A stretch of 64,000 bases of DNA, taken from the NCBI GenBank assembly GCA_003194525.1, contig NBIV01000219.1, positions 61,353 to 125,352 of the forward strand. Direction: 5' to 3'. Shown one piece after another: positions 15,096-51,679 of this stretch. Below the pieces are notes generated by a model. It was not told the DNA's origin. It saw only the letters and a list, made by a program, of their open reading frames with translations, and did not search any database. Position numbers and translations under genes: made by a program. The stretch is from Gracilariopsis chorda. Lineage: Eukaryota; Rhodophyta; Florideophyceae; Gracilariales; Gracilariaceae. The first letter of the stretch is position 1. Every line of letters starts with the position of its first letter.

Positions 15096-16447
15096 TTTAC
15101 TGGAATGCCAGAGGTACATTAGGGCGTGTAGTTGTTCCAAGATATAGAGATCTTCGAGACACAATAGCGAAAGAGTTCCATCTACCAGGGCATTTTGGTT
15201 GGGAGAAGACATATTTGCTCTGTGCTCAACACTTCTACTGGAAGCGAATGTTCGCAGATATCCAGGAATTTGTCAGAACTTGTCAAGAGTGTTAGTTCAA
15301 CAAAGAGACAAGGGCAATGCAGAGTGGTAAGCTCCAGCCACATCGCGTACCGGATGCCTGTTGGGATGTCGTCTCAATGGATTTTGTGTCAGAGTTTCCG
15401 ATTACTCGAACAGGGAAAGACTCAGTACTTGTTGTCGTTGAGAAACTTTCGAAGAGAGCTATTTTTATTCCGACGAAGAAGACATTGACCTCTATCGAAG
15501 TTGTCCAAATACTGTTCGATCGAGTGTTTTCGAAACATGGTGTGCCTAAGACTATCATTCTGGATAGAGATAAGCTTTTCAAGTCACATTACTTCCAAGA
15601 AATTACCAAAATGATAAGTGTGAACTTGAACATGGCTACCAAGGGACATCCGCAAACGGATGGACAGTCGGAAAACATGATCACAACACTTTCGGCAATG
15701 AGCAGAGGTACTGTACAGAAAACTCCAGAAGATTGGGACTGTGTGTTGAGTGAATTGGAATTTCACTACAACTCGACTCCGAACAAGAGCACAGGAATTT
15801 CTCCGTTTGAAGTTGACTTGGGTCGCGTGCCTGAGTCAGAGCTTTCCAGGACGTTTCCGAAAACGAATTGTGTCTGCCCGGCAGCAGTATACTACTTGGA
15901 AAAGCGACAGGCGTTTTGTTCATTAGCCAAGGGCAATCTTGTAGATGCCATCGCACGGCAGACCTTCTATGCCAACAAGAAACGAAAGCATTTAGCGTTT
16001 AAAGCAGGGGACATGGTGTTGCTGAGGGTAAAGAAGACGAGTGCGTCACAGCAGTCTGGTCTTCCTCAGAACTGGCAACCGAAGTTTATGGGACCATTTG
16101 CCATAAAGGAAGTCATGGGACCAGTGACGTACAAAATTGAACTACCTCCGACGATGAAGAAGGCACATAACGTTTTTCATATCTCCCGATTGAAAAGGTT
16201 CAATCGCAGTGAGGGTGGTCAAAGCTCACTATCGGTAGTGATTGATGCGGAAGGTACTGTGGAACAAGAAGTGATTGCTATTCTTAAGACTCGCAAGCGC
16301 AATCGCAGAAGACAGTACTTGGTACAGTTTGAAGGCGATACTGAGGAAGAAGCAATTTGGATTAACAAGAATGAGTTATCGCACTGTACCGAACTCATCA
16401 AGAAATTTGAAAACTTGCCGCGGTCGTCAAGTCCTAAGAGAGGGTGA
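15096..16447 (+). pseudogene. integrase with chromodomain-like tail, element A
   Basis: The zinc-binding HHCC region lies at about 15170-15295 (HLPGHFG ... TCQEC) and is closed by TAG at 15293-15295. From 15317 the catalytic core is open: Asp in SMDFVSEFP, Asp in ILDRDKLF, Glu in DGQSENM. A GPF/Y module (FMGPFAIKEVMGPVTYKIEL) and then a chromodomain-like tail follow (EQEVIAILKTRKRNRRRQYL to about 16420). Chromodomains in this position define chromoviruses and are known in some families to bind histone marks and steer integration. The tail keeps the strand pattern but lacks some aromatic cage residues, so binding is uncertain. Confidence 0.87.
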
Positions 16448-16448
16448 T
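16435..16448 (+). promoter_or_regulatory. Polypurine tract of element A
   Basis: Purine-rich AAGAGAGGG directly before the 3' LTR, the expected plus-strand primer position. Confidence 0.6.
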
Positions 16449-16646
16449 TGTAATAGAATCATTGTAGTACGAACTTTCACATTGCATTTATTCGAATGGT
16501 CGTGAATGTTTGAATTCAGATTCAAACATTCAAGAACGGACGTCTACTGTGGTATAAGAGGCGAACGTTTAGATTGTTCGAAGTACTAGGAGGGTTAGCC
16601 TCCAGTTGTAAAGTCAGTTTAGTTTTGGTAAGAGCCTACTCTTACA
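16449..16646 (+). repeat. 3' LTR of element A
   Basis: 198 bp, same length as the left copy, with about three substitutions. It carries the same 12-bp inverted repeat (16504-16515 and 16520-16531). TAATC follows at 16647-16651. Confidence 0.95.
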
Positions 16647-16651
16647 TAATC

Positions 16652-33430: not shown

Positions 33431-33853
33431 TTAGTAAAGTGGGGTTATACTGGCGTTCAGTGAAGCACCTAAGTTCGGTTAGCTGTACTTGTTTATTGAT
33501 CGGACAAGTAGGGCGGTGCTTGCCTCTGGTTCTCACTACGGTAGTCCGCGAGCTCGGGGCTTAAGTACTCCTGTTGCGTATTACGTTGCACGTTTGCGCC
33601 TCTCGCCACGTACTAACTTAATGCAACCACCGTGTTGTCAGTCTAATTATCATTGCACGGCGCTCTAAGTGCAGTGGTTCATGAGCGAGCTAACGCGTGT
33701 CAACATGACAAGTGTTCATGGCGCATCCATTACTGACAGTCGTCTTGTAAGTCTGCACTAACCAAGCTGTACAGCCTGTTCTGTCAGTCTCCACGCGCTA
33801 GTCTTGCGCATTATCAGCCTGCGTGCGTACTCTCAAACCAATTGCATTCCATA
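33431..33853 (-). repeat. 3' LTR of copia element 2
   Basis: 423 bp. Differs from the 5' LTR by about three substitutions and by lacking a 29-bp tandem duplication. The purine stretch AAGAGGATGAG next to it (33854-33864, minus strand) is the likely polypurine tract. Confidence 0.93.
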
Positions 33854-33875: not shown

Positions 33876-36755
33876 TTAGCCTGAAGACTTGTTAGACGAA
33901 TTGAACATGGCGTTACCAAAATCCACAGATATCTTACCATCGAATAACATCAACTCCAGACTTTCGCATATCGGGCTATCGCACTTGGTCATTGGGTCTG
34001 CGTAGTTAATCTTGCCAGGAATCCATACCATTCGGTTGATTCTGCGGGTTTCAAACTCATATCTAATCAAAGAGATGTCCCCACGAATAGACCTGTCCGT
34101 TGCATTTCGACAAGTAGACAGCGTACTATATAGGTCCTTCGAATCCACAACGATCCAAAGTCCAACCTGAATTCCAAGGAGAGTGGAAAAAGCCCTTGAC
34201 AAAACTTTTCCTTCGTCTATGGCCTCTCCAGCTGCCAGCGTTTCAGCAGAGCCAATCGATTTGACTGGCCTACGCGACTTGTGGGAACTCCAAGCAACCA
34301 CGTGAATGATAGAATTCAGCTCGAGTTTCCCGAACAGTAATCCCGCAATATATCCTAGCTGTCCGTAGTCTTCGGAGCGACTTGCGTCAGAGAACACTAC
34401 CACTGAAACTTGATACGCCTTGTCTTCGATTGGGCGCACAAATTTAAGCGTCGTGCCCTTTTTCTTAAGACTCTTCAACAGATTAATCTGCGTGATCAGA
34501 TCTTTGACCAGTGGCTTTGGACCCTTCTGCTGTAAGTAGCTTGCTGCATGTGCACAAAACGGAGAAGCAGCGACGCCTAGCCACCCTATACTGCTGTTGA
34601 GAGACCTGAAAGCTGCGAGTTCGATACTGTTTAGGCGACTATCTTGTTCCCTTCTTCTCACACGACTAATCTGTGACGCTTTGTATCCTTGCATCTTATC
34701 TTCGCCGTCAATTGCAGTGGTCATGTCGTGGAACTGGGTCACTACAAGACCGTAGAAATGAATCTTGCCGGGACCATACACAATTGTCCCAAGCTTATTA
34801 CATTTTCCGATTTGTTCGATGACGACGGCCAGGGTAGATCGTTCTCCTCCAAAAAGGATATCGTCCACCACTTTAACGGCAACGACGATGATCTTTCCAT
34901 TGGACTTCTTGTAAAACAGTTGCGGTACGTAGACAAGCTGGTGGAAACCAAAACTGCGAAGAACGTCGTCACTAAACTGCTGCCATTTAGCTCCGGCGTT
35001 AGCTAGCCCATAGGCCGCAGACAAAAGAAGCCAGTAGTGTTGATGACGGTTCTTGCATTCGCGCGGCGGAACCAAGTATACATCTCTCTGGGCTTCGGTC
35101 TGCAAAAACGCGCTCTTGAAGTCGATCTTTGCGAGCGTCCAACTAAAGATAGTGGTTAATGACAGCAATATTCGTATGCCAACTGGTGGGCAAGTCGCTG
35201 AGTCTGTCTTCAGAATGTCCTTGTCACGGTCCTTGTTACCGTGGACGGCAATTCGTGCCTTGAGCGTGAGGGAGTTATCATTGCACCTTTTGACCTTGTA
35301 GAACACATGGCTTGTGACTATGTTTGCGGTCTTGGGCACCTGGGAGACTGCCACATCGCGAACTATTTTCTCGAACGACCGTTCCTCCTTGTCGTAGGCA
35401 TTTTGAGAGGCGTAGGGCGGTAGTCCTTGCGCCTCATGCAGCATGAACTCCCCGTGGCCAAACGCTTTGTAATAGGTCTCGATGAGATTCTTTTCGGAAC
35501 TTTCCAGCTCCTGTCCCGGTGACAACTGCACTTCCCCGGCTTGCATACGATCGGCGTCCTGCGTGCCTGGTTCAGTCTGTGCTTCGGTGGGCGCTTCCTT
35601 GACATAATTCCAGACTTCGTTTTCCAGAGTGAACTTCTCCTTGTCGCCGTCATCGTAGTTAACGGAGAACTTACCTGACTTCTCGTCGTGCTGATGCACA
35701 GTTCCTTCGTAGAACTTCTTGTCGATTGGCCAGTAGACTTCGATTTTCTCCCCGACCTTCGGCAAATTGGGTCCGATACAATCTAGTTCTTCGTCGCTCT
35801 CATGCGTAGCTTGGTTCTGAGCTGCGGCTGAATTGTCTTCTTCGGACTGTGTGTCATTGTCCAAGTCCTGTACAACCTCTTCTAGGTTTCTGTCCAACTC
35901 GTCAATAGCATCTTGCACAGCGGCTGCTAGCTCGTTGTCGCATATTGCGGGCCTAACGTCTTCCATGGCTGCGTTGACTTGCCTTCCTTTCGATCCGGGC
36001 ACGGTAACAGTACGGTTGGCGACATCGTATGCTAGGACTGGCCTGTTTTCGGACCATTTGCCCCGTTTGTCGTGGTGATTCTTCACAAACACTTGGACCA
36101 TATCGCCAACGGCTACCGAGGCTTCTTCGAGTGTCTTCGATCGGAGAATGAGTGTCAGCTTGCGCTTGGCCAGCAACTGTTGGTACGCATCGATGAGATC
36201 CTGCGACAGCAGTTTGGGCAGAGAGCCAGCCTGAACAGGCCTTGCGTAGCCCTTTGCCAGCTCTTGGGCAGACAGTATTTGGCTGCCGTACAGATCGTTA
36301 GATATCCTGATGGCTTGTTGAACGAGCATCTTGTCTGTCCATTCATGCTTGTCGTTCTTCGAAGCTTCCTGCTTTCGCAAGAAAACATCGCGGATGATCC
36401 TGTGCTTAGACTCCAGCACATTCTTGCTGTGTCGGCGCGGGGGTAGCGGTCTGGTACCAATGTCTTGAGTTTGCAAGTACTCCATGAAGACGCTGTTATT
36501 GAAGCCTCTGTCGAAGGCAACCGCCTGCGGCGTCCAAAACGGAGTTACCCAGTGCGCGTCGAACACCAGGATCGCGCGCCACATCGACGTATCTTCGACT
36601 ACAGCACCAACAGAGTAACGGGATGCAGCGTCCATAGCATGCATAACGCAGTACTGATCGAGAAACATGTGGTCCACGCACACTAGATCGTTGAAGGACC
36701 TAGTTATTGCGCTGAGGGACACCTTTCGGCTTGACTTCGGCTTGGCGGTAGTTAG
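33876..36755 (-). CDS. pol of copia element 2: integrase core, Tudor-like domain, RT, RNase H
   Basis: Continues the gag-pol frame left of element B; codons between 36756 and 36854 belong to B's LTR and are not part of it. Integrase core: Asp in LVCVDHMFLDQ, Asp in AVAFDRGFNN, Glu in NVLESKHRII. A small barrel and an acidic linker follow (DLDNDTQSEEDN). A Tudor-like domain at 35601-35762 comes next. RT has SLTLKARIAVHGNKDRDKD, LAKIDFKSAFLQTEAQRDVY and active site VVDD (34860-34871). RNase H keeps VVFSDASRSEDYG, SIGSAETLAAGEA, WIVVDSKDLYS and IPGKINYADPMTK. Stop TAA at 33876. No lesion was found in this part, so before element B landed this copy probably encoded active enzymes. Confidence 0.93.
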   Translation of the reverse strand, partial: LTTAKPKSSRKVSLSAITRSFNDLVCVDHMFLDQYCVMHAMDAASRYSVGAVVEDTSMWRAILVFDAHWVTPFWTPQAVAFDRGFNNSVFMEYLQTQDIGTRPLPPRRHSKNVLESKHRIIRDVFLRKQEASKNDKHEWTDKMLVQQAIRISNDLYGSQILSAQELAKGYARPVQAGSLPKLLSQDLIDAYQQLLAKRKLTLILRSKTLEEASVAVGDMVQVFVKNHHDKRGKWSENRPVLAYDVANRTVTVPGSKGRQVNAAMEDVRPAICDNELAAAVQDAIDELDRNLEEVVQDLDNDTQSEEDNSAAAQNQATHESDEELDCIGPNLPKVGEKIEVYWPIDKKFYEGTVHQHDEKSGKFSVNYDDGDKEKFTLENEVWNYVKEAPTEAQTEPGTQDADRMQAGEVQLSPGQELESSEKNLIETYYKAFGHGEFMLHEAQGLPPYASQNAYDKEERSFEKIVRDVAVSQVPKTANIVTSHVFYKVKRCNDNSLTLKARIAVHGNKDRDKDILKTDSATCPPVGIRILLSLTTIFSWTLAKIDFKSAFLQTEAQRDVYLVPPRECKNRHQHYWLLLSAAYGLANAGAKWQQFSDDVLRSFGFHQLVYVPQLFYKKSNGKIIVVAVKVVDDILFGGERSTLAVVIEQIGKCNKLGTIVYGPGKIHFYGLVVTQFHDMTTAIDGEDKMQGYKASQISRVRRREQDSRLNSIELAAFRSLNSSIGWLGVAASPFCAHAASYLQQKGPKPLVKDLITQINLLKSLKKKGTTLKFVRPIEDKAYQVSVVVFSDASRSEDYGQLGYIAGLLFGKLELNSIIHVVAWSSHKSRRPVKSIGSAETLAAGEAIDEGKVLSRAFSTLLGIQVGLWIVVDSKDLYSTLSTCRNATDRSIRGDISLIRYEFETRRINRMVWIPGKINYADPMTKCDSPICESLELMLFDGKISVDFGNAMFNSSNKSSG
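35601..35762 (-). other. Tudor-like domain inside copia pol
   Basis: About 54 residues between integrase and RT: KVGEKIEVYWPIDKKFYEGT, then HQHDEKSGKFSVNYDDGDKE and KFTLENEVWNYV. The pattern (Gly, xVxVxWPxDxxFYxGxV, YDDGDxExxxLxxExW) is that of PDS5- and related Tudor domains, which bind methylated or other histone tails. It sits after the acidic linker and well before the RT, so it is an added module of the integrase C-terminus. Function as a chromatin-targeting tail is inferred by analogy with chromodomains of Ty3/gypsy chromoviruses. Confidence 0.8.
36751..36755. other. Target site duplication of element B (left)
   Basis: GTTAG, repeated at 49571-49575 on the other side. The 5-bp duplication fixes both ends of element B. 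Confidence 0.95.
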
Positions 36756-37647
36756 TGTGGTGCAATGCCCGGCAACGGGAGAACACCACGAAGACGTTCG
36801 GGATCTTCCTCTCACGAGGTGAACGCAGTAGCAGAGCCCTTCCAGGGGTGACACGACTAGTTCAGTTTTAAGCCGAGGTCAGCCTTCACGACTTGCGTAG
36901 GAAGGGGTAGCTGGCAAACCAGAGAAGCTCCGTCCACACGGTGTATTGCTCCAAGTAAAAGGCATGAGTCCAAACGGTGGCGCACACGACAATGAGTCGG
37001 TGTGAGACGCAGATAGCGGGGGCTATCCAAAAAGGGGAAAAGGAAAAGGAAAAGAAATAGAAAAGTGAGGGAAAAGGGGGCGAATCACAAGAGCGACTCG
37101 ATGGATATCGGCAGGGACGGGTGAAACCGTATACACGGCGAAGCCACAACTGTGAGTAGACTGGTATCCCAGAAATGGATTCTGTTAAGCGAGCAAGGGG
37201 GTTGAACAAACCGTATGCAACGGGATACCTCTCCGTGGTGGAGTCGAGTACCGCCGAAGGCGTGAATGTTCGGAGCCAAGTCCTTGGTTAGACACCCTTC
37301 TTCGGGAAGATTCTAAGCAGGAACACCCTTGTTGGGGAAGTTTACTGAGGTGCAGTGGCGGTTGCCGCTGCACTAAGTACAGTAGACTACCCAGTGTAAT
37401 AACTAAATAAATAAATAAATAAATAGAATATTTCTAACCATGTATCCACTACAGTACCACCACCCGTGTGACACGTGAGCGAGCCGTTGCCACGGCGCAT
37501 TCCGGCTATGCCGTGCACCACGTGTATGCCCACTGTCGCCGCATTGCTCCTGTTCATAACAGTGTAGTAAGTGCCATCCCCGATGTATCGGAAATTATGA
37601 ACCAGTGCCTGGAATCCCCCCCCCCCTTGAGAAGGGCGTGCACAACA
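36756..37647 (-). repeat. 3' LTR of element B
   Basis: 892 bp. The A/T-rich tract of AAAT repeats near 37402-37425 may be a TATA-like promoter region. Ends in TGCACAACA next to the internal region. Compared with the other LTR, about 19 substitutions lie in the first 276 bp and about 2 in the remaining 616 bp. Confidence 0.95.
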
Positions 37648-37668
37648 CATCCCTCTCCTTAGACGGAG
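37648..37668 (-). promoter_or_regulatory. Polypurine tract of element B
   Basis: Minus strand reads AAGGAGAGGGATG up to the 3' LTR, the expected plus-strand priming position. It overlaps a short inverted motif (CTCC at 37655, GGAG at 37665) that recurs at 42251-42264. Confidence 0.55.
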
Positions 37669-37694
37669 CGACAACCTAAACGAGGGGCGGCGCG

Positions 37695-39611
37695 ATGGCA
37701 AACGAACAACGTAAAAACACGGCCTCCTCCGGTGTTCCGGTCAACCAACTGTCAGCCTCAGCGCACTCGACGCGATCTGACTCCACATTCTCCCTCCGTG
37801 TTCACGGCTCGCCTTGCATCCCGAGAATGTCTAACCTTCCTCCCAACCGTCGTCTCCGCTATCACGGTGGCTTCACTGGCTTCCGGTCCGTTCCGCTTCC
37901 GAACAGTTCGGCTCCACCTGCATCGCGGGACCCTTCCTCCCCTCAGCCGGTTCAGAACCCTCCGCCGTCGGCGGCTGCTTCGTGGCAAGGCGCTGCATCC
38001 GGCTATGCCGATCGTTCCATCGCGGGTATCTTCCCAGGGCAGACGCCACCACTGGTGTGGCCGTTTTACGACGCCCTCATCGGGGCAGATCCGAGTACTC
38101 GGCGTGGGTGCCTCATGCTGAGGCATGCGCCCTGGTTCCATCCGCTTGCCGTCCGAGACGAGGATCTCATCGCGTCGTACGCGGATACTGTTAACACCCT
38201 TCCGGGGGACCTGCCTGGCATTGTCACCATGTCCTGGGACTGGCGCCAGCGTATTGCGATCCCGGTTCACCATGTTCGCCGAAATTCGGGGGAGTCCGCG
38301 GTTACCGCGCATGCCGCTTTCGTCCGCGTGGCACACCTCCGGCAACGCCGGGCACCGTTCGAGTTCCCCATCCGGGAGGAGCAGACTTTCGACTTTCTGA
38401 TGTACAGCATTCGCGGGGAGATGGGCTACTGCGACCGCCTTGCGGACTTGGAAACCTTCGCCTGGAGGAACGTTCCGGTTGCCCGGCAGGAAGCCCTGTG
38501 CTGGGTGCGACCCATTCTCCGAGCGGAGTTCCGATTCCTTCCCCGGACTACCCGGTCTGCCTTCTTACAGGACTTCATCCGCGATGAGCGGCGTTGGCGA
38601 GCCCGTTTCGGGTACTTCGTGCCGTATCAGAACACGGAGATCGAGCGCATTGCGGCACGCCACCGACGCGGTCGGTACGTCACCCTCCCTGAGTGGTGGT
38701 CCTCCTTGGAGGTGTGCTGGGGCTGCTTCGTTGAGCTGCCTCCGGTACTCACCTATCTAGGCTCCTCCATGTTGTGGGATCCCCGCTCGGGGCTGTGGTC
38801 CGTCGTCGTTTCTGAGTGGGCCGTCCGCGTTGCGGCGTATATCCTCGCAGAGGCGTATGACCAGTATCGACTCTGGCACATTCAGCCGCGTGTGCGGGCT
38901 GCCATCAGGAGTCTGGACCTGCGTGTCCCCCTTGGGGGTGAAGCGAACGTCAAAGAGATGCTCTCGCTACTCGATTACATCGAGGGTGTGGACTGGACTG
39001 CAGTGCCCCTGGCCAATGCCCAGCGCAATCACTCGCGAAGCGGCTCTGGCCCCGGTCTCGGGCGCAATACCCCGATTGCGGGCGATTACATCTTCTTCGA
39101 TCCCTGGGACTTCCGGGAGCTCACCCGCGCCGAAGCGGAATCATACCGGGATGCCCCGAGAGAGGTACCGGGCGACCATCCGAGAGGCTAGGTCGATGCC
39201 GACGATTATCACCGATCCTACATCGGGGGTGATCCCATGGTGGATAATGATCCGGACGATCCGGTAGATGCCGTCGTGGACGGCAGCGAGGCCGACGGAG
39301 TCGTAGGTGGCGCGGTCGATGGCAGCAACGGGTTCAATTCCGGCCCGGCGGTCCCGACGAGTGCGACTGATCCTCCGGCAATGCCGGTTCCTGCTACAGC
39401 TCCCTCGGTTGCCCCGAGTCCTACTTACCCGGCTATACCGGCTGGTCCGGCAGTTCCGGTGGCGAATGACCCTGGTGGCGTCATCGCGCAGTTCCTCCGC
39501 GAGGTGGGATTGAGCTCCAACGAATTCACCGGTGACATTGCCGCGATGCGGGACACGCTTGCTAGCCGCCCTGGCGGGGGTCCCCCGCCGAGCGGTAACA
39601 ATGGACAGTAG
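37695..39611 (+). CDS. Opposite-strand gene of element B, unknown function, one internal amber
   Basis: Starts 48 bp inside the 3' LTR and runs away from it, opposite to gag-pol. The frame has 638 codons with a single TAG at 39189-39191: residues 1-498 before it and about 140 after. Residues 1-110 are Ser/Pro-rich and disordered. From about 115 to 440 it is compact and unusually rich in Trp, Arg and aromatic residues (LPEWWSSLEVCWGCFVELPP, WDPRSGLWSVVVSEWAVRVA). The tail after the amber is acidic then Ala/Pro-rich (ATDPPAMPVPATAPSVAPSP) and ends Gly/Pro/Asn-rich. I see no signal peptide, transmembrane helix, zinc knuckle or enzyme motif, so it is not an env or a second gag that I recognise. 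No competing minus-strand coding of quality lies opposite. Some plant Ty3/gypsy elements (for example Grande with its gene23) also carry antisense-strand genes. Confidence 0.75.
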
Positions 39612-41074
39612 CTTCCTAGCATGCTGGCATTACCTTGAGATAGATAGATAATCAAGCTTACCCCTGCAAGGGGGTTTCCACAATCCCTTGTGTCATATCT
39701 CCGTCATGGAGCTCCACGCGTCGCGTTGCGCATGATGAATCCGCGTAGCGGCCGCAAGGACATGTGCGACATAAGTCTCTCCATGGGAGCGTAAGTGTCC
39801 CCAGTGGGGTTGGCTTCGCGCCTTCTCCGTGACCACGGTGGATGTCTATCTAGTCATGCATCCTACGAGGGCCGTCCGCATTTGCGGGTGTCTTGCTCAG
39901 CGCGAGGAAGGCCCCCTGGGTAAGTTTCGATCACGTCTTCCCACGCGTCCGCGAGTTGTAGCCACTGTAGTCCACCATCCCGGTCATCCGGTTCGTTCGC
40001 GACTCCGCTCGTGCGGCTCTTGCCCTCTCAGGGCGTCCCCTGGGCATCAGGTTTCGTCTGCACGCGTGCAAGCGAGCCCAGGCGTCCTGGTGCACTCCCC
40101 ATTGGGGCGTATTGACGCTTCGATCACCATCCGCCCGTTACCTGGGAGCGCCCGTTCTCAGCGTATTTCAACTGATAGGGGCCCTCAGTGCTTGCTAACA
40201 ACTCCCTAAGGGAGCATTATCTCAGAACGAGGGAGCTTTCTGCGGGAAATGAGCGGCGTCCAGCGGTCCACACCGGGAATTACCGGGGTCAGACCGGTCC
40301 AAGGCGCGAAACGCGAATAACTTCCGATTCAAGACAGCTGCAGCTTATCCTACTCGTCTGCGTACTCTCGGGATCAAGAACTGTCGAATGAGATCCTGCA
40401 ACCAGGAATTGAGCTCCCAGAAGCGGGTTAGACAAGACCTGTTCAGTAGGGCTTCTTTGAAACCAGTCGAACTGGAAAAGTGCCATAACTTTTGAACCAG
40501 CCGATAAAATCGGAATCTGTCTTCACCGAGGTACTTGGATAGGTCTAAAAGAACCTAGTACAAAACCATTTTGGAAACGGAGGTCAACCGACCAAGTTAG
40601 CCGATTTTTCGGTGGAAGCCGTTCATATGGTACTGTAGAGCCAGAAGTCCCGGTGACGGGGAAGTCTGACCGTAGCCATACGGAGTTGCGCAGCGTGGCT
40701 GCGAGTACACCAGATGTTCTGGGAGCACAGCAGCCGTCGTGAGACAGCAACATCGCCCAGAGATGGGGTACAGTACCGGAGGTCCGGAAACTGACATCCA
40801 TCGTAGATGGTTAGTAGTGTAGATAAAAACTTCAATCCTTGAAAAAGGTGCTGCGTACGAAAACAACACACCGTCATCGATGGGAAAAACCGTGCAAGCG
40901 GGAGCCCTGGAGGGGGGGGGCCTACCAGCTTGCTGGATGAAAAACCATCGGTAGTTTGATCCGAAAAACGATTGCTTCGGCGGCGGCCGACTACGTCGGT
41001 ATAGCCGCAGTGTGCGGGACGTCCCCGAGTGGGAGCGGTCCCAATTCCTTACTTCTCTCATCCGTCGTGACGGT
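39612..41074. other. Element B internal region without a clear gene
   Basis: About 1.46 kb between the opposite-strand gene and the chromodomain. A minus-strand open frame at 40597-41232 overlaps the chromodomain in another frame and shows no motifs. There is a run of nine or more G near 40913. It may hold the convergent 3' ends of the sense and antisense transcripts; no terminator could be recognised. Confidence 0.6.
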
Positions 41075-41530
41075 TTATCCCACTTGGGCGTTACACAGCG
41101 TAGCTGGCGTAGCGGTTCCCGCACGGCGGTGATATTGGACCACTTTGGATCGTGGGAGATGCTCGATAGGCTCCCACGTGTCCCAGTTCGGGTCGTAACC
41201 GTACCAACGGGAGCGGTATTCCAACACGCCATATCCGTTATAACGGTGTCCCACGACTCGCTCGAGAATATATTCTTGGATGAAGACTTCCCGGCCTTGC
41301 CGTGTTGTGGTTACACCGCTTGCGGTGCGCGTGCCCTCATGAGGGAAAATGTCCTGTAACAGGGTATCCGGGTGCCAAGTCCGGTCGACGGCGTCTTCCC
41401 CGCGAGGGGCCGCAGGTCCATCATCGTGGTAATCGGCTTGCACCTTGAGGCGACGAGGTTCATTCCGTGCTGACGGTAGCGCTTGCGCGTGTCCCAGAGG
41501 GGTGCTTCCGTGCTGCACGGTGAATGGCAC
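41075..41530 (-). pseudogene. Chromodomain end of element B integrase
   Basis: A classical chromodomain at 41123-41287: VFIQEYILERVVGHRYNGYG, then LEYRSRWYGYDPNWDTWEPI, HLPRSKVVQYHRR. The aromatic cage positions (Tyr in QEYI, Trp-Tyr in SRWYGY, Trp in DTWEP) are kept. It is in the same frame as the linker and GPF/Y module but cut off by TAG at 41549. Chromodomains of chromoviruses bind histone H3 methylation and guide insertion. Confidence 0.9.
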
Positions 41531-41548
41531 AGGCGGCGCCTCCCTAAT

Positions 41549-42700
41549 CTAAGGTTCACGTGACGTCAGTGACGGTTGGCGGCCATGGGGCGTGGTATGA
41601 TCCGCCTCCCTGTCTAGGGTATCTCCCCACGGTGACGCCGTGCGTTGCGTGTGCGACGCTCCGTGGTCCACGGTGACTTCCTTCTGTAAACTCCCCAGTG
41701 GGGCGTGCGCAGATGGTAGAGAGCCCGGCGACTTGGGTGAAATTTCCCGAATCGGGTTTTCCATGCCGTCCTCGACGGTAGCGCCATCCGGAACGACCGG
41801 TTCGTTACTGGTGATCATACCAGGGTCTACCGAGACGCTCGGATTTCGCGCGCACGATCGCGATGATGCGGAGACTTCCTTCCCCTTCACAGGGCGTGCG
41901 GTCCCGTTATCAACGGTTTGTGCCTTTGCCGAAGCGTCCTCTTCGGTAGATGGCACTCTTGACGAGTCACGGCGTGTGTTCCCCTGCTGGGGCTTGCCAC
42001 TGGCATCCAGCGCAGCTGGTTTAACACCTTCGCGTCCATGTGCGTCCTTCGACGGTGTCGATCGCGACGTGGCCGCTACCGCGGAGGGTTCCGTCACTGA
42101 CGGGGACTGCGCGCCGATGTTGCGAACGGAAGGGGCACTGTCGACGGTGTCCTGCGACTGCGCTGGAGCGCTAGCGTTGCCAATCCGTGTCTCACGGCCT
42201 AAGTCCCGTTGCGACGGCGAATTACCCGCGATAGAGCGGCTTGCTTCCCCCTCCTTAGACGGAGCTACGGGGCGACGAAGACTTCGTGAAGTTACCGTGT
42301 GACGGTGGAAGATCCCGTGTGACGGTAGTTGAGAGCGGCCAGGAAGGCCGTTGTGGTCCGGCGTAGCCGGGTCTTCCGAGGTGAACGGAAGGTCTGAGAG
42401 GCCCCGGGAGGGGTGTGGTAGCACGGTAGGCCGTGTCACCACCGGTGTATCGGATGCAGAGCCATATTCCAGCGTAGGATCCAGCGTAGCTGGTGCAGCC
42501 TCAGTCGAGGGTGGTGGGGCTAGCACGATGCGATCGCGAGATAACCGCTCATTCGCGTCACCCATTTCCACAACCACTGTACCCGTCGTGGCGGAGATAA
42601 CCTTGAAAGGACCATCCGCCACAGGCGAGAGCTTATGGAGCTTCTCCCTTTCAGGGTTGTAATACTCCTTGCGGACGAATACGAAGTCCCCGGAGTTGAT
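41549..42700 (-). pseudogene. GPF/Y module and long low-complexity linker, element B
   Basis: Begins after TAG 42701 with INSGDFVFVRKEYYN and DGPFKVISATTGTVVVEMGD, the GPF/Y beta-barrel of Ty3/gypsy integrases. About 320 residues of Ser/Thr/Pro/Ala-rich, probably disordered sequence follow before the chromodomain. In most chromoviruses the chromodomain follows the GPF/Y within tens of residues, so this spacer is unusually long. It contains repeated SKEGE-type motifs whose DNA forms short hairpins. Confidence 0.8.
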
Positions 42701-43632
42701 CTATTCCGGTTTGCCACCTCGCAAGCGAGCATCGAAATTCCGTTTGTAGACGGCTTGGGCGCGGTCTATCGCCTTCCGCGCTGCGGGTACCAGCTTGGTC
42801 AGCCATGTTTTCCACTTCTGGCGGTAATCCTTCACAGAAGGGAACGCGTCCAACGTAGGTTGGGATTCCAACGCCATTGGCGGGGGTGCCCGTGAAAGGA
42901 CCAACTCGAAAGGGATATTCCGGTAGTCCGGTGTACCTGCGTATTGTACGCAAAGGTCACGGCATCCGTGTAGAGATCCCAGGTCTTGGGGTGGTCAGCC
43001 GTGTAAGCACGGAGAGCTGCGAGCATTGTCCGGTTAAACCGCTCGACCTGCCCATTAGACTGGGGATGATACGTGGTCGTGAAGAGATTCTTCACGTCCA
43101 GTATCCGACAGACGTCCTGGAAAAATCTCGATGCGAACTGTTTCCCGTTGTCGGAGAGTAGCTCCAAAGGAGGTCCGTAGGCAAACACCCAATGCCGCAC
43201 AAAAGCGTGAGCGACCGTGTAGGCGGTAATCCTCTTTAGAGGCACTGTCCGAACTAGTTTCGAGAACTTGTCCGTAATAACGAGTAGGAACTTGTTGCCT
43301 CTCCTGGTAGAGAGCAATGGTCCGAGATTGTCAATTGCGACAAACTCGAGCGGCGCCCTGGCGGGGAATAGCTTCATCCGTTTGTAGTTCTTCCGGAGTT
43401 TGACCCGGTTCTTCGCGCATTGCGTGCAAAACCGCACCGTAGCGTAGCAATCAACCACCATGGCGGGCCAGTAGAAATCCCTGCGAAGGGTTAGATAAAG
43501 CTTCCTCCCACCGGAGTGTCCACCGAGTTTCGGGTAATGCGAAAGATGCAATATCCGCTTCTGTAGCGTGTGTGGTACCACAACTTGTGGGGTAGCCTCG
43601 ACGGTCCTCACGAGGTAACCAATGTCGTTCAC
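42701..43632 (-). pseudogene. Integrase zinc finger and catalytic core, element B
   Basis: HHCC finger: HLSHYPKLGGHSGGRK ... FCTQCAK. Core: Asp in FVAIDNLGPL, Asp in LLSDNGKQF, Glu in SNGQVERFNR. The frame changes by one base near 42940 inside the conserved ISPFEL-type block, then continues (ALESQPTLDAFPSVKDYRQK) to TAG at 42701. Upstream it is in frame with RNase H but separated by TGA 43705. Confidence 0.9.
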
Positions 43633-43704
43633 CCCGAAGGGGAGATTCTCTCCGCCGTTGAGGCGTGCACGTATCCTTGTACAGAAGGGGTCCCCGAATT
43701 GTTC

Positions 43705-44328
43705 TCAGATCATTTCCTCGGTCTCAACCGGTACATAATTTCCCGGTATGGGCTTCTCAGAATCCTCGCTCGAGGCGAGTAAGTCGTCGTATTCAGCGTC
43801 CAATTCCCAGTCTTCTGGCCATTCCGGATCTTCCGGCGTATCTCCGTTCACCATGTAGCACGGTATCTCATCGTGATCCTCATTGGCGAGGGCTTCCCCC
43901 TCCGTGGGCAAACGCGACAGAGCGTCGGCTTGGGTGTTCTTCGCCCCCTTCTTGTAGATGACTTCGAAGTCAAATTCCGCTAAGCGGAGTCTCCACCGCA
44001 TGAGGCGGCCAGATGGATCCGAGATGTTCATCAACCACCTCAATGAGGAGTGATCCGTGTAAACGGTAAAGTGAACTCCCATGAGATAGGGGCGGAGTGT
44101 CGACAAAGCCCAGACAACGGCCAGACACTCCTTCTCTGAAACAGAGTAATTGCGTTCGTGAACGTCTAGCGAACGTGACCAGTACCCAATCGGGTGTCGC
44201 TCCCCGTCCGGGGGGGTCTGGAATAGAGCACATCCGACCTGATGGTCGCTCGCATCCGTGTCCACGGAGTATGGTAGTCCCGGTTTGGGCAATGCCAAGA
44301 TTGGTGCTGAAATGACAGCCTCCTTCAA
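43705..44328 (-). pseudogene. RNase H of element B
   Basis: PYSVDTDASDHQVGCALFQ, SVSEKECLAVVWAL, FTVYTDHSSLRWLM and TQADALSRLP carry the four acidic catalytic positions of RNase HI. It is preceded by a frame change plus stop between 44345 and 44380 that cuts it from the RT, and ends at TGA 43705 before the integrase in the same frame. Confidence 0.92.
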
Positions 44329-44378
44329 GGAGTTGAAAGCAACCCTTTGAGGGGGGTAAGGTGGTCCAGTTTAGGTGG

Positions 44379-46394
44379 TTACCCCTTCCGCAAGAGCGCG
44401 TTGAGAGGAGCTGCAACGTCCGAAAAGTTCGGGATAAACCGTTTGCACACGTTGACCAGCCCTAAAAAGGAGGGCAGTTCCGTTTGAGTACGGGGTTCCT
44501 TCGCCTCCGCGAGGGACTTGACTCGAACGTCTTCGATTGACAACCGTCCTGGACGGATTATGTGCCCAAGATACTTGATGGTGTCAGTGAAAAAATCGCA
44601 CTTCCTCAGCTTGAGGGTAGTTCCTGCGTCACGCAGCACGGTCAACACGTCTCGGACGTGGTCTACATGGTCATCCATGTTGTTCGAGAAGATGATAATG
44701 TCATCCAGGTAGACCAAACAGGTCCGCCACTTAAAGCGGCTCATCAAAATGTCGATGGCCCGCTGAAAGGTGGCGGGTGCGTTGGTTAAACCGAACGGCA
44801 TCCGCTTAAAGCAGTACGATCCTGCATGGCAGACGAAAGCCGTTTTGTCGCGGTCCTCCTCCCGAACAGGGACTTGCCAATATCCCCAATTGGCGTCCAA
44901 TGCTGTGAACACGGTGGCGCTCCCCAGGGAGTCAATACACTCGTCCATACGGGGGATAGGATACGTGTCCCGTACCGACACGGCATTGAGCCGGCGATAG
45001 TCGATACAGAACCGCCAGGTTCCATCGCTCTTTAAGGCCAGTACAACTGGAGATGCCCACGGCGACTGAGCCGGTTCGATAACTCCAGCTCGGAGCATCT
45101 TCTCCACTTGGAACTGTTCTTCTTCCCGAGCCTTCGGTCCTGCCCTGTATGGGGGTTGCGCGACGGGTCCCGTATTCGGCAACACGTCAATCCGATGTTC
45201 GGTTGCATTAAAGTCCCCAAGGGAGCCATCCCACATAGTGGTAAACTCCCGTAACATGTCTCGCAGACGTTGACGGTGTGACTCCGGTACATGACCGAAG
45301 TCAAGGTCTTCCAGAGCCTTGATAGGATCGATTCTATCGTAGCTCGTGGGCACGTGCGTTCCTGTTTCAGGCGTTGATTCCGAGGTGCTTGGCGAATTGT
45401 CCACTGCCGCGGTAGCCTCCTCCCCCTCCTTAGACACGACGACGTCGGAGTTCGAATCCTCTGCGGAGGCAACAATTCCGAGGACATCGGCAGCGGTAGT
45501 CTTCGTAGGAAGCATGGCCAGCGGGTGCGGCGTAACTGATCCAATAACTTGGTTCTTCACCAGATACTGGGGTTTTGTGCCAAGATTGGCGACAAGCAAC
45601 CGGAACGGGACATCCGGAGTCACATTGACAATTCCGTTTGCAACGGCAAGTTGATACTTCTCGTACAACGAGGCAAGGGGTTGCAAAATCCGAACACCGT
45701 GTTGACGGGAATTGACCTGCACCATTACCTGAGTCTCAGGGGGAATAGAAACCGATGCCGCAACGCGGAGCTTCGTAGACTCCCGTGCAGCGGGGGGTGG
45801 TTCCTGCGCGGCAGGTAGCGGAACTTGCTTCTGCGATGCCCGCTTCAGCGGTCGGCGAACAATAGGAACCGTGGTTCCATCCTCGAGTTCTACTGTTCTC
45901 CGGCGTGGCCGGATTGCCTCGATGAATCGGTCACAATAATCACATCCCAGTATAACTGGCGCAGCCAACGACCGACAAACAATAAAGTCGAGCTTCACCA
46001 CGAAAGTGCCCAAGCGTACGACCAAGTCGATGGCACCCACCGTTTTCAACGGATTGTTATTCGCGTCAGCGACGTCCGGAACCGTTGTAGAACGGATGCG
46101 AGACCGCAAGAGCGGGGGTAAAATCGACTCGTCGACAAAGTTTGGGCCAGCACCTGTGTCCAGGACTGAAAGATATCTCACCATAAACTGGTGGCTCAGG
46201 CCAAGGTCAGCGTAAACCTTGTAGTTGCGCTTGGCCATAACCATGATTCTATCCGGGATCCGGTTGTTTCGTACCCGTATCCATGGTCGACGCAAAACAC
46301 CAAGGTGCTTCGAATCCGCGTCAGCGGTGTCTTCCTTTGTCAGGATTTTCACCGGGGAGGGAGGCGGCGGCGCCTCGGCCGTCGTCAACCTCAA
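44379..46394 (-). CDS. Protease and reverse transcriptase of element B
   Basis: 671 codons. Retropepsin with intact VLDTGAGPNFVDES (Asp-Thr-Gly) near residue 76, a second strand with VILGCDYCD, a Ser/Thr-rich connector, then RT: GTWRFCIDYRRLNAVSVRD, VFTALDANWGYWQVPV, PFGLTNAPATFQRA and the active site YLDD in VYLDDIIIFSN, and the connection SFLGLVNVCKRFIPNF. This piece has no internal stop. The upstream gag ends in another frame at 46433, as expected for a programmed frameshift or as decay. Confidence 0.92.
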   Translation of the reverse strand: MRLTTAEAPPPPSPVKILTKEDTADADSKHLGVLRRPWIRVRNNRIPDRIMVMAKRNYKVYADLGLSHQFMVRYLSVLDTGAGPNFVDESILPPLLRSRIRSTTVPDVADANNNPLKTVGAIDLVVRLGTFVVKLDFIVCRSLAAPVILGCDYCDRFIEAIRPRRRTVELEDGTTVPIVRRPLKRASQKQVPLPAAQEPPPAARESTKLRVAASVSIPPETQVMVQVNSRQHGVRILQPLASLYEKYQLAVANGIVNVTPDVPFRLLVANLGTKPQYLVKNQVIGSVTPHPLAMLPTKTTAADVLGIVASAEDSNSDVVVSKEGEEATAAVDNSPSTSESTPETGTHVPTSYDRIDPIKALEDLDFGHVPESHRQRLRDMLREFTTMWDGSLGDFNATEHRIDVLPNTGPVAQPPYRAGPKAREEEQFQVEKMLRAGVIEPAQSPWASPVVLALKSDGTWRFCIDYRRLNAVSVRDTYPIPRMDECIDSLGSATVFTALDANWGYWQVPVREEDRDKTAFVCHAGSYCFKRMPFGLTNAPATFQRAIDILMSRFKWRTCLVYLDDIIIFSNNMDDHVDHVRDVLTVLRDAGTTLKLRKCDFFTDTIKYLGHIIRPGRLSIEDVRVKSLAEAKEPRTQTELPSFLGLVNVCKRFIPNFSDVAAPLNALLRKG

Positions 46395-46432
46395 CTCTGA
46401 GGACGCCTCTCCAAAAGGGGAGACTCCTTCGA

Positions 46433-48575
46433 TTAGTTTCCCTGTGAAGGGGTAGATACGGGGTGCTGCCCCGGTTCCTCGACAACGAGAGCTGACGCCC
46501 GTTGAACGGGAGCTTCCGTTCTCGCGGTGTTGGCCGCATCGCCGAGTGATCGAGCGTTACCCAGATAAGCCAGAACAGTCCGCGCAAGCGGTGTTTGAGC
46601 GAAAGCATTCGGAAAATCCGTCTTAGCACGGAGATACGATGTCATCGGGACGGAATTCTTCTCCAATGGAGTGAGCGCCTCGTAGTTGGAGACTACTTTT
46701 GCCATCTCCCTCAATGAGAGGAGGCACTGTGGTGAGGTGTGCCCGTGCGTATAGCACAAATGGCAAATGACAGGCACTGCTCCGCTTCGCGGCTCTGCAT
46801 TCCGAGTATCAGCAAACCTTCCCGCATTTCGGTTGTCAATCCAACCAGGCCGTTGATTACGGGTGAAGCCGTTTGCAAACGGAACTCGAGGTGCCTGCAT
46901 GCGGTTCTTACCTACGTATAAAACCGTGTCACCCTGAGACGTTTCACGGGTGGACCCCGTCGTCGACGGTAATTCCGTGATCGGAACCGACAGACCGTTG
47001 GCTTGCATAACCTGAACGTTATCGTATCCCTCTTTAAAGGCGTCGTCCCCTATAAGCGAGAGAGAAGGGGAGTTATTCTCCAACATCAACGCTTTCGCGG
47101 CTTTAGACCTGGCAGCAGGAGCACGGGCGCGGAGTGCATCACCCTCAGCTCGAGCAAACTGTACGAGCTCGAGATAGGTGAGCTTCCGTTTCTCCTCCCG
47201 GTGACGGGCGACGAGGCTCTTGATAGCCGGATCAAGTCCATCGATGAACATCGTGCAACGCTCCCCAGCTATTACCACAACGGTGGAAAGCCTTATTCAG
47301 GCGTACCGAGTATTCGGTTTCGAGCTCACCTGAGCGTTGAAGAGTATCTCGCAATGCGAGGATTGCCGACTGAATGGCGGTATTTGTGGCGTATGAGCGC
47401 AACAAATATTGAAGTGCTTCAGGCCAGCAGGTGACTCCTCCTTCGGAGGCTCGCGAGGACCCTCGCACAGAGTTGTACTGGTCCTCGGCGATTCCCCGTA
47501 AGAAATAAGGCAGCGCAATGTAGGGCTGGCCTTCGTTCATTCCGAGAATATCGGCTTCCGCCACGTAGCGTGCGAGGAAATCCAGAACCAAAATGGGGTC
47601 TTCTCCAGTAAAGTACTGGTTGCGGAGTGAAAGTTGCATCCGTTTGATACAGTCTTTCACTCTACCCGTTCCACGGGGGGTACGCTCCAGTGAGGAGTCT
47701 TCCAGCCGATAGTATCGGTACGATAGAAGCTTCCGGTACAAGTTGTTGGTTGGCTTCAACTCCTTGAGACCGGAATGTCTTCTACCCTTCGAACGAGAGC
47801 AAATCCCACCAGCGGTGGTATCAGACGGCTTGAAGCGGGAAGAACGCCCTCGGCGATCACCTTCAGGTTCAGAATCCGAGGAATCGGAGGGATCCGAGTG
47901 GCTCGGTGCAGAATCTGAAGATGTCGACGTGTCCGAATCAGTTCCATACTTCGGTTTCGACTTCCGCTTTTTGCGGCGCTTTCGATCTCCCTTGCGCTCA
48001 TCGCGCTGAGAGGCAATGACCGGCTCCGCCGGACGGGGCTGTACCACGTGAATGGATCGCTCCAACGTCTCCAGACGGTTCCGTACCCGATTGAATCGGT
48101 CTTCAACTCCTTCCACGAAGGCTGCAGGGCTATCAAAGCACTCCAACAATTTTTTGGCGTCTAACCGGAGAATGCGGAGGTCCTCGGCTATATCCTTCAC
48201 AGGATGAGCCTCAACCACGCCTCGGAGAGAGGTAAACTCCCCCACAAGGGTGTTGTGAGCAGCGCGCAAGGCGCGAAGCTGCTCTTCCAGGTGGGATACA
48301 TGGGAGTTGTCAGCCTGCCCGGGTGTCGGGGATTGAACCGCTACAGCGGGAACAGCCATAGACGATCCAGCACCTGGAGACAGGTTTTCCAACAGGGTTG
48401 GCGGAATATTCCGGTCTTCCGGTTGACGACTCGGAGGACGAGGTGGGGCCTTGGTTGCAAGAGTAGAGCCAGCCCGAATTGGGATTCTCGAAGCAACCCG
48501 GTCACCGGGAACAGCGCTGTCACGGGAGCGACTGCGAGTGGTTACAGGTTCGGCATCCGAAGGCTTCCTCGACAT
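46433..48575 (-). pseudogene. gag of element B
   Basis: N-terminal part 48575-47232 (447 codons): a disordered basic head, a coiled coil (HLEEQLRALRAAHNTLVGEF), a Lys/Arg then Ser/Asp-rich stretch (KRRKKRKSKPKYGTDSDTST), and the capsid helices (FTGEDPILVLDFLARYVAEA). A frame change near 47275 leads to 47278-46433, which completes the capsid (ERCTMFIDGLDPAIKSLV) and carries a CCHC knuckle CHLCYTHGHTSPQC. The gag is long for Ty3/gypsy. No start other than 48575 precedes the coiled coil in that frame. Confidence 0.85.
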
Positions 48576-48660
48576 AATGACCCTTCCAGACGGAAAGAAC
48601 CGAAACTTCCGGATAACGGCCTCGAAAGAGGAAACAACACACGATAGTGGTTAAAACTTC

Positions 48661-48675
48661 TAGGTCGGGAGACCA
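48661..48675 (-). promoter_or_regulatory. Candidate primer-binding site of element B
   Basis: On the minus strand TGGTCTCCCGACC begins three bases inside the 5' LTR and starts with the TGG expected for a tRNA CCA end. The segment GGTCGGGAGACC can also fold on itself, so self-priming as in Tf1/sushi elements cannot be excluded. The tRNA is not identified. Confidence 0.5.
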
Positions 48676-48678
48676 CTT

Positions 48679-49570
48679 TGTGGTGCAATGCCCGGCGACG
48701 GGAGAACACCACGAAAACGTTCAGGATCTTCCTCTCACAAGGTGAACGCAGTAGCGGAGCCCTCCCAGGGGTGACACGACTAGTTCAGTTGTAAGCCGAG
48801 GTCAGCCTTCACGACTTGCGTAGAAAGGGGTAGCTGGCAAACCAGAAAAGCTCCGTCCACACGGTTTATTGCTCCAAGTAAAAGGCACGAGTCCAAACGG
48901 TGGTGCACACGACAATGAGGCGGTGTGAGCCGCAGATAGCACAGGCTACCAAAAAAGGGGAAAAGGAAAAGGAAAAGAAATAGAAAAGTGAGGGAAAAGG
49001 GGGCGAATCACAAGAGCGACTCGATGGATATCGGCAGGGCCGGGTGAAACCGTATACACGGCGAAGCCACAACTGTGAGTAGACTGGTATCCCAGAAATG
49101 GATTCTGTTAAGCGAGCAAGGGGGTTGAACAAACCGTATGCAACGGGATACCTCTCCGTGGTGGAGTCGAGTACCGCCGAAGGCGTGAATGTTCGGAGCC
49201 AAGTCCTTGGTTAGACACCCTTCTTCGGGAAGATTCTAAGCAGGAACACCCTTGTTGGGGAAGTTTACTGAGGTGCAGTGGCGGTTGCCGCTGCACTAAG
49301 TACAGTAGACTACCCAGTGTAATAACTAAATAAATAAATAAATAAATAGAATATTTCTAACCATGTATCCACTACAGTACCACCACCCGTGTGACACGTG
49401 AGCGAGCCGTTGCCACGGCGCATTCCGGCTATGCCGTGCACCACGTGTATGCCCACTGTCGCCGCATTGCTCCTGTTCATAACAGTGTAGTAAGTGCCAT
49501 CCCCGATGTATCGGAAATTATGAACCAGTGCCTGGAATCCCCCCCCCCCTTGAGAAGGGCGTGCACTACA
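48679..49570 (-). repeat. 5' LTR of element B
   Basis: 892 bp, same length as the other copy including the C11 run near 49539-49549. Ends TGCACTACA followed by GTTAG at 49571-49575. Confidence 0.95.
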
Positions 49571-51219
49571 GTTAGACACGCTGTACATCTATGGAGGACG
49601 GATTGCAAGTAGTTGTCGACTTGCTCATTCCACAGCATGTTTCTTTCTAACAACATCCTTATGTCTGAGTATGTAGAGTGTCCGCAGAGGTGCTTGTGAA
49701 CTTTGTCCACAATCTTCTTAACATCCTTCCAGGGTTTCTTCGCTACATTGCCTTCTATATGTGCAGAAGCACAAAACATGGATCTCTCGTTATCCCCCGT
49801 TGTACCACTGGTACGAAACGTGAACACCTGGTGGGGTATATATGTGTGCATATCCCAGTCAACAAGCGTGATACTGCCTTGGGTATTCCCGTTAGCATCC
49901 GGTGGGAGAATTAACTTGTTTTGGTTAGCGTTTAATATGTCACAATGACTGGTGACGTTGCGGCCGACTACCCACTGGGACGAACCATCAATGACTAGGT
50001 GTCTGATCTGCACGGTCGTGCCCTGATCCGTTCGGGCTTCCATTAAAACAGAACCAAGTATCTTCTTTGCCGCGCTTCTTTGTTCTCCGCTTCCGTATTG
50101 CCAGTACGGGCGGTCTGCAACAGAATCTGGGATGGGGTCAAGGTCTCCATTCCATTCAGGACACACAAGTTCGGCAATCAACTTCAATTCCTTGGATCCA
50201 ATTCCACTATATGGAGCTCCGTCGTCCAGGAGCGGTTCAGTCCGATTGCTTATTGAGATGATGTCGGTGTTCTTCGAGGCAAATGTGACCATGTTGAACC
50301 TTAGCACGTTCTCCGCGGAGCTTTCCTGCTCAGGAGGGGCGTCGAAGGCTTGAACTCCAGGCTTCAAGGATCCGTCTTCCTTGTGGTCGTTCTTCCAATG
50401 TCCCCACTTGCCACATTTGTGGCACTTAGTCCTTGCCTTGAGTCTGGCAAGCTGCTCCGGCGTTCTTCGTGACCCACTACCCTGTGAGTTTGGTTTTCGC
50501 GACGTGTATCTACTATGTGACGTGTGCTGAGCAGCGTTGCTCGACAGGGCACGGGATGATGAATCTCCGTTTCCGTGTTTCACCTTGTCACATTGCCTCA
50601 GAACGGAGGCGATTGCTTCGTATGAGACGGCCTTGAGATAATCATTCGTGCTCGCGTTCGAAGAAAGACTGGAATATCTTGGAGCCGCATTAGCCAACAC
50701 CGAAACCCTCTGGTTGTTGTCCACATCCGCATTTGCGAGTAGCGCGAAAGCGACCAAGGATTCCGAGAGTTTGGCTTCTGATCCGTGCGCGTTCAGTCGT
50801 GATACTTGCGCTTGGAATCGCGATTCAAAAGTCTTGAAGCTCTCGTTGTGGTTCCTCTTCGTGTTCATCAGGGTCAAGAAATCTTGAAACACTTCTGAGA
50901 CGACGGCGAGCGGAACCCTTTTGTACAGAGCCTGAACAATAGCTTCTGCACCCTGGTCGGAGCGAATCGTACTGTCCGGGATAGCCTTGCATAGATCTCG
51001 AGCGCGTCCGTACAGCTGAGACTGCAGCATGATTCCACGAGCTCCTTTTGCCACCTTGTTACTGTTGGAGTCTGCCGAGGTATCCTGACACGCCTTCCAA
51101 AGGGGAACGGCTTCTGCATACTGCTCCTGATTGCCGCGTCCATCTGTCCACGGAACCGTCCGGATGTCCCACGAAAAGCGCGGCCTAGACGGCAAGTTGT
51201 TAGAGCTTTCTAGGTCCAT
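49571..51219 (-). CDS. gag, protease and integrase finger of copia element 2
   Basis: Start codon ATG at 51219-51217 lies in the primer-binding site, and the codon two upstream is TAA (the last three bases of the LTR), so this is the first usable ATG of the frame. Gag: SWDIRTVPWTDGRGNQEQYA ... capsid helices ... a zinc knuckle CHKCGKWGHWKNDH, whose fourth ligand is His rather than Cys. The protease has LLDDGAPYSGIGSKEL, with Asp-Asp-Gly at the active site, and SSQWVVGRNVT. The integrase finger (HKHLCGHSTYSDIRMLLERN ... HRCTAC) ends where element B is inserted. It continues in phase at 36750. Confidence 0.92.
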
Positions 51220-51222
51220 AAC
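51210..51222 (-). promoter_or_regulatory. Primer-binding site of copia element 2 overlapping the gag start
   Basis: Minus strand GTTATGGACCTAG abuts the LTR end and matches the copia element 1 site (GTTATGGGCCCAG) at 11 of 13 positions. The ATG within it is the gag start. This fits priming by the anticodon half of initiator tRNA-Met, with two mismatches. Confidence 0.7.
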
Positions 51223-51674
51223 TTAGTAAAGTGGGGTTGTACTGGCGTCCAGTGAAGCACCTAAGTTCGGTTAGCTGTACTTGTTTCACCTAAGTTCGGT
51301 TAGCTGTACTTGTTTATTGATCGGACAAGTAGGGCGGTGCTTGCCTCTGGTTCTCACTACGGTAGTCCGCGAGCTCGGGGCTTAAGTACTCCTGTTGCGT
51401 ATTACGTTGCACGTTTGCGCCTCTCGCCACGTACTAACTTAATGCAACCACCGTGTTGTCAGTCTAATTATCATTGCACGGCGCTCTAAGTGCAGTGGTT
51501 CATGAGCGAGCTAACGCGTGTCAACATGACAAGTGTTCATGGCGCATCCATTACTGACAGTCGTCTTGTAAGTCTGCACTAACCAAGCTGTACAGCCTGT
51601 TCTGTCAGTCTCCACGCGCTAGTCTTGCGCATTATCAGCCTGCGTGCGTACTCTCAAGCCAATTGCATTCCATA
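51223..51674 (-). repeat. 5' LTR of copia element 2
   Basis: 452 bp. It contains a 29-bp tandem duplication (unit CACCTAAGTTCGG...TTGTTT near 51256-51313) absent from the 3' LTR, so the duplication arose after insertion or during reverse transcription. Followed by a run of 14 G. Confidence 0.93.
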
Positions 51675-51679
51675 GGGGG

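Follow-up and report, generated by a model that had tools for sequence, protein, structure and literature searches.

A Tudor domain flanked by integrase and reverse transcriptase in a copia retrotransposon of Gracilariopsis chorda and in related elements

The choice of insertion sites by retrotransposons is understood for few groups. In the yeast Ty1/copia elements, the site is set by the C-terminal region of integrase, which binds host proteins and has no reader domain. Here we describe a Ty1/copia retrotransposon, copia element 2, in a stretch of 64,000 nucleotides from the florideophyte red alga Gracilariopsis chorda (contig NBIV01000219.1, positions 61,353 to 125,352 of the forward strand; hereafter the window, part of the contig labelled C219), in which a Tudor domain is placed between integrase and the RVT_2 reverse transcriptase (RT) of the same polyprotein. 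The closest described systems are found among other long terminal repeat (LTR) retrotransposons. The chromoviruses have a reader domain at the integrase end (PMC3605345) and resemble copia element 2 in having a reader after integrase. CoDi-A copia elements of diatoms have a putative chromodomain on the integrase C-terminus (PMC2774666), likewise a copia integrase with a C-terminal chromatin reader. Gypsy-10_Ec32 of Ectocarpus, also an LTR retrotransposon with a Tudor domain, carries it at the C-terminus and was, to its authors' knowledge, the first transposable element with one (PMC12477816). A preliminary description of the window had known of no described Tudor equivalent in copia elements. 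This stood for copia, since none was found in the literature searched with terms joining Tudor with copia or LTR integrase (most subscription papers and bioRxiv lie outside that scope), but the claim has to be narrowed in view of the published Gypsy Tudor domain and CoDi-A chromodomain. Papers that do join Tudor and copia (PMC13269885, PMC9998398, PMC3441728 and PMC7175516) were set aside, as they refer to host proteins or to an author's name.

The Tudor domain and its predicted methyl-lysine pocket

Profile match and predicted structure identify the segment as one Tudor domain of PDS5/RDM15 type. PDB chain 7de9_A, the Tudor domain of Arabidopsis RDM15, matched it with an E value of 5.7e-11, and the Pfam profile PTM_DIR17_Tudor scored 29.7–29.8 bits on the cut-out domain (cut-off 27.2) and matched 31 of 32 alignment rows at E <= 0.01 (the 32 include two from plants). 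PF21743 labels, assigned automatically, already stand on some homologues in public protein records; with only the Tudor region (residues 366–430) as query, public proteins gave one match among nine candidates scored. AlphaFold2 predicted a five-strand barrel, as in Tudor domains, and the best PDB match of the model (Foldseek) was again the RDM15 Tudor domain (0.6–1.0 Å; 5.0e-6). The preliminary description had placed a Tudor-like segment of PDS5-type form at 35601..35762 and had staked it on a barrel being predicted; its limits agree with those in Table 1, the motif it quoted was found on the minus strand, and the profile match and the barrel bear out the type. Chance resemblance was excluded by the 7de9_A match together with a shuffle test, in which the alignment score against the RDM15 Tudor domain was 131 and the highest among 10,000 shuffles was 61. 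Several G. chorda copies of the domain have stops or disruptions, which would suit a decayed passenger; the shuffle result, the slower change of the domain than of its linker and its presence in most spanning homologues (see below) speak against this, and a chance resemblance or passenger has next to no probability.

The whole integrase–Tudor model gave retroviral integrases as its best fold matches. In this model integrase has its own C-terminal SH3-like domain, distinct from the Tudor domain, followed by a long helix and a flexible linker (Table 1); the corresponding linkers in relatives are net acidic. The Tudor domain could in principle be a duplicate of this integrase domain, binding DNA or integrase subunits and reading no histone, as both are SH3-like barrels and a weak partial profile alignment joins them (probability 53.6, 41 columns, 20% identity). 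However, the similarity of the Tudor domain to RDM15 (4.8e-15) far exceeds that to the integrase domain, which rules against duplication as its main origin, and its conserved columns are largely those of the reader pocket, which DNA binding would not need. We therefore give this explanation little chance.

The RDM15 Tudor domain is an H3K4me1 reader, in which W616, Y623, Y641, D643 and D645 contact H3K4me1, and E647 and Q654 contact H3R2 (PMC8184781). The residues at these seven positions in the window Tudor domain are W, Y, Y, D, D, E and E respectively; all five methyl-lysine contacts are kept, and one of the two H3R2 contacts, Q654 being replaced by glutamate. Among 68 copia Tudor domains from other sources, position 616 was W in 67, 623 was Y in 61 and F in seven, 641 was Y in all 68, 643 was D in all 68, 645 was D in 49 and E in 14, 647 was E in 67, and 654 was E in 62 and Q in two. 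Six of the seven positions fall within the ten most conserved columns of the domain, the exception being 645. Within G. chorda (16 copies, some decayed), the three aromatics were complete in 15, D643 was present in 15 and D or E stood at 645 in ten. These counts left out eight partial Tudor matches, three plant rows and the homologue P0010 (G. chorda BWQ96_08672), which shares its RT sequence exactly with locus L038 (C206) and is the same element. Such conservation argues for a pocket that would favour a lower-methyl lysine, with H3K4me1 as the first choice. Recognition of methylated arginine on Gag or on host RNA-binding proteins, in the manner of SMN or SPF30 and in the service of particle assembly, is improbable: the Tudor domains of SMN, SPF30 and TDRD3 did appear among the fold matches, but with Foldseek values of 1.4e-3 and worse, against 5.0e-6 for RDM15, and the RDM15-type acids for both H3K4me1 and H3R2 are conserved.

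Distribution, history and rate of change

Homologues were collected as sets of 56 proteins (query residues 330–760) and 100 proteins (alignment query), and 114 proteins (P0005–P0118) were compared. The integrase C-terminal domain and RT are both spanned by 79 of the 114, and 63 of these 79 have a Tudor domain in between, at a median of 59 residues past the integrase C-terminal domain and 14 residues ahead of RT. G. chorda and Agarophyton chilense are the species named among the copia homologues, and a pair of EukProt entries prefixed IDg presumably comes from Gracilaria domingensis. The Tudor-less homologues (for example P0069, P0071 and P0068) have a low-complexity stretch in its place, with a recurring pattern like PSTFDPD in several, and the median spacing between the integrase C-terminal domain and RT is 140.5 residues without the Tudor domain versus 135 with it. 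A regular-expression motif ahead of RT, present in 13 of the 63 Tudor rows and 15 of the 16 Tudor-less rows, was dropped.

In a tree of integrase plus RT (62 rows, comprising the window and the 79 spanning proteins less 18 whose RT was too short), Tudor-bearing rows occupy both main branches. Within the second main branch lies a clade (100/99) of ten Tudor-less rows; of two further Tudor-less rows, P0076 is weakly placed and P0089 lies on a long branch at the root. The first main branch is weakly supported (80/81) and the rooting depends on P0089. This topology suggests, and is best fitted by, one early gain of the domain with one or two losses. In a tree of 86 Tudor domains over 63 columns (L031, L032, L035 and L039 left out), four plant host Tudor domains cluster (99/96), and the tree does not fix the place of this cluster, or of two G. 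chorda host Tudor domains (one half covered), among the copia rows.

The G. chorda genome (91.3 Mb) was searched with a 78-residue Tudor query, giving 35 matching rows. Twenty-six of them adjoin a match to integrase or RT of this copia clade and represent 25 elements (C153 was hit twice). Of these 25, 20 besides the window copy were read in sequence; 18 of the 20 have integrase ahead of the Tudor domain in the same orientation, and 19 have a complete or partial RT behind it. Five of the 20, L026–L030 (C368, C425, C495, C527 and C569), share one pair of flanks and thus represent a single insertion, present in contigs that are redundant or duplicated. The search by RT agreed: 25 of 129 scored rows, corresponding to 23 elements, were at least 47% identical to the window RT, and 21 of the 23 have a Tudor match just upstream. 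The other two are C122, with a Tudor match 9 kb upstream and another copia element between, and C268, which was matched over RT residues 118–305 only and has no Tudor match. None of the other 104 RT rows (26–38% identical) has a Tudor match within 2 kb, 15 of them sharing a contig with one. By integrase, 28 loci were at least 41% identical, 23 with a Tudor match nearby and five without (C17, C454, C76, C40 and C113). As only the best candidates were scored, these counts are lower bounds. The preliminary description had seen a capture by this element and had made it depend on conservation in other copies; the domain is indeed in copia and conserved, but the 25 elements and 63 homologues rule out a capture private to copia element 2 and point to an old feature of the clade that one sub-branch or more has since lost.

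Nine of the 35 Tudor rows have no tie to copia, of which C272 is a host-type ORF (open reading frame). The remaining eight (two on opposite strands of C188, and C376, C387, C301, C4:550880, C52 and C131) have no adjoining integrase or RT match of the clade, and several lie in open frames of 195–242 amino acids; these matches possibly represent a host gene family or the donor. A host protein at L041 (C65 near 135315) combines a SET domain and two PWWP stretches with a Tudor domain of the same Pfam family (36.0 bits) at its C-terminus.

Amino-acid change is slower in the Tudor domain than in the adjacent linker. Between the window and L024, dN was 0.38 in the Tudor domain, 1.10 in the linker just ahead of it and 0.30 in integrase, with a dS of 2.05. 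Within families, nine pairs with an estimate, not all independent, gave dN/dS of 0.22–0.54 for the Tudor domain and 0.17–0.89 for integrase, a spread expected from a mix of function and decay.

Proposed role and its alternatives

Taken together, these results make it fairly probable that a copia ancestor gained the Tudor domain long ago and that most of the sampled relatives keep it as an integrase-tethered chromatin reader holding the integration complex on marked chromatin. The likeliest role is that of a chromatin-reading tail of integrase, and since the domain recurs in many related elements, it may help to choose insertion sites. The domain would stay on mature integrase as a flexibly tethered tail, would bind a lower-methyl lysine mark, H3K4me1 being the first choice, and would hold the integration complex on chromatin bearing that mark, as has been proposed for chromovirus chromodomains. 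That an old and widespread copia clade, red algae included, directs its insertion to marked chromatin through an integrase-linked Tudor domain of H3K4me1 type is a tentative proposal, to which we give somewhat less than an even chance. Targeting of tRNA genes found no support, as ARAGORN detected none in 20 loci, although with a bacterial-code setting and about 2–3 kb of flank this is a weak negative.

Several points weigh against such a tethered reader. Histone binding and insertion targeting by the domain are what we infer, and its attachment to mature integrase is an assumption. The domain is missing in 16 of the 79 spanning homologues and is thus dispensable in some families. Position 645 is G or Q in six of the 16 G. 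chorda copies, which would weaken the H3K4me1-specific contact; families with these residues may read a different mark. On the whole 1000-amino-acid ORF, PTM_DIR17_Tudor scored 25.6 bits, under the curated cut-off. For selection, dS approaches saturation in the deep pairs; in the closest pair, window versus L021, the Tudor domain shows three replacement and no silent changes, too few to judge. Some of these points would suit a domain that reads methyl-lysine without steering integration: with its shorter distance to RT than to the integrase C-terminal domain and with families lacking it, the domain could after processing remain with RT or be free, and serve in nuclear retention, in the docking of particles or in evading silencing. 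Against this, a reader on integrase is its simplest use, and chromoviruses (PMC3605345) and CoDi-A copia (PMC2774666) have their readers at the integrase end; we consider a non-steering role unlikely. The integrase-tethered reader is open to a concrete and cheap test, since the pocket is conserved and the structure of its twin is solved, and the Tudor-less sister families are a natural control.

The element, its neighbours and known systems

Copia element 2 spans 51674 to 33431 on the minus strand and has the features of Ty1/copia: LTRs, a CCHC gag and integrase ahead of RVT_2. Its LTR pair aligns over 388 bp at 99.7% and 64 bp at 97% identity; a run of G flanks the element on both sides (33425–33430 and 51675–51688), and the LTR ends are not TG...CA. 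The CCHC knuckle was identified by motif, the zf-CCHC profile giving only E 0.099, and integrase by fold, as the rve profile had no match in the Pfam scan of the element. The second D and the E of the integrase core are separated by 32 residues (36411–36512, minus strand), where 35 is usual. A nested LTR element, probably of Ty3 type because its reverse transcriptase is RVT_1, separates the HHCC motif of integrase from the catalytic core and leaves the copia frame in two pieces; the first 41 residues of the downstream ORF derive from the nested LTR. The gag-pol frame, described earlier as otherwise intact, is therefore split. The LTRs of the nested element (892 bp, 97.6% identical) diverge more than those of the enclosing copia element, yet the nested element must be younger; gene conversion or chance could account for this order.

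Copia element 1 (LTRs 19962–20242 and 24663–24943) has an integrase match at 22066–22764 and an RT match at 22988–23908, 29 and 30% identical to element 2. It gave no match in the genome-wide Tudor search and has only about 75 residues between the two matches, in line with the earlier remark that it lacks the domain. A Ty3 chromovirus is also present, so the window holds two kinds of reader-bearing elements. Elsewhere, a 1409-amino-acid ORF (1178–5407, minus strand) has strong C-terminal WD40 repeats; its N-terminal part, we presume, resembles a STAND NTPase, which was not among the 25 best profile rows listed.

Table 1. Positions of features in the window
Feature	Position	Strand	Basis or remark
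3' LTR, copia element 2	33431..33853	-	
5' LTR, copia element 2	51223..51674	-	29-bp internal duplication
Upstream copia ORF (gag with CCHC knuckle, protease region, HHCC motif of integrase)	49477..51222	-	copia-coded down to 49571
Downstream copia ORF (integrase core, integrase C-terminal domain, Tudor, RVT_2)	33876..36878	-	
Integrase catalytic core, first D (residue 69) to E (residue 156)	36411..36674	-	motif positions, fold
Integrase C-terminal SH3-like domain	35949..36101	-	model strands 190–240
33-residue helix, model residues 246–278	35835..35933	-	integrase–Tudor model
Flexible linker, model residues 279–300	35769..35834	-	low pLDDT, block means 58, 37, 34
Tudor domain, ORF residues 374–424	35607..35759	-	7de9_A match, AlphaFold2 barrel, Foldseek best RDM15 Tudor
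Codon, cage Trp (RDM15 W616)	35730..35732	-	
Codon, cage Tyr (RDM15 Y623)	35709..35711	-	
Codon, cage Tyr (RDM15 Y641)	35655..35657	-	
Codon, Asp (RDM15 D643)	35649..35651	-	monomethylammonium contact in RDM15
Codon, Asp (RDM15 D645)	35643..35645	-	monomethylammonium contact in RDM15
Codon, Glu (RDM15 E647)	35637..35639	-	H3R2 contact in RDM15
Reverse transcriptase RVT_2	34815..35348	-	Pfam E 1.3e-18
Conserved region past RT, RNase H by position	33879..34508	-	no profile match; kept in related loci
Nested LTR element, RVT_1	36756..49570	-	GTTAG at 36751–36755 and 49571–49575
Ty3 chromovirus, chromodomain after integrase	11690..16647	+	PF00385 Chromo E 1.5e-6

The best structural match, the Arabidopsis RDM15 Tudor domain (PDB 7DE9), has the same fold as the copia domain, is about 40% identical to it and likewise possesses the three cage aromatics, the two aspartates and the H3R2 glutamate; it differs in having Q654 where the copia domain has glutamate, and belongs to a host protein of RNA-directed DNA methylation, whereas the copia domain follows integrase in a polyprotein. 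The targeting regions of yeast Ty1/copia lie in the C-terminal region of integrase, as a site-setting tail would here, but bind host proteins and have no reader domain. Ty3 chromoviruses carry a chromodomain and have RT before integrase, and copia element 2, with a Tudor domain and integrase before RVT_2, falls outside that group. CoDi-A copia has a putative chromodomain, whereas the Pfam scan of copia element 2 listed no Chromo match up to E 10. Gypsy-10_Ec32 is a Ty3/Gypsy element with a C-terminal Tudor domain and a yellow-green algal homologue, whereas the element here has copia order, an internal Tudor domain and a red-algal host. The comparison suggests that histone readers have joined integrases several times, and the Tudor domain of this copia clade, if it acts as proposed, would be a further retrotransposon route to histone reading, built independently of the chromodomains found in Ty3 chromoviruses and in CoDi-A copia.
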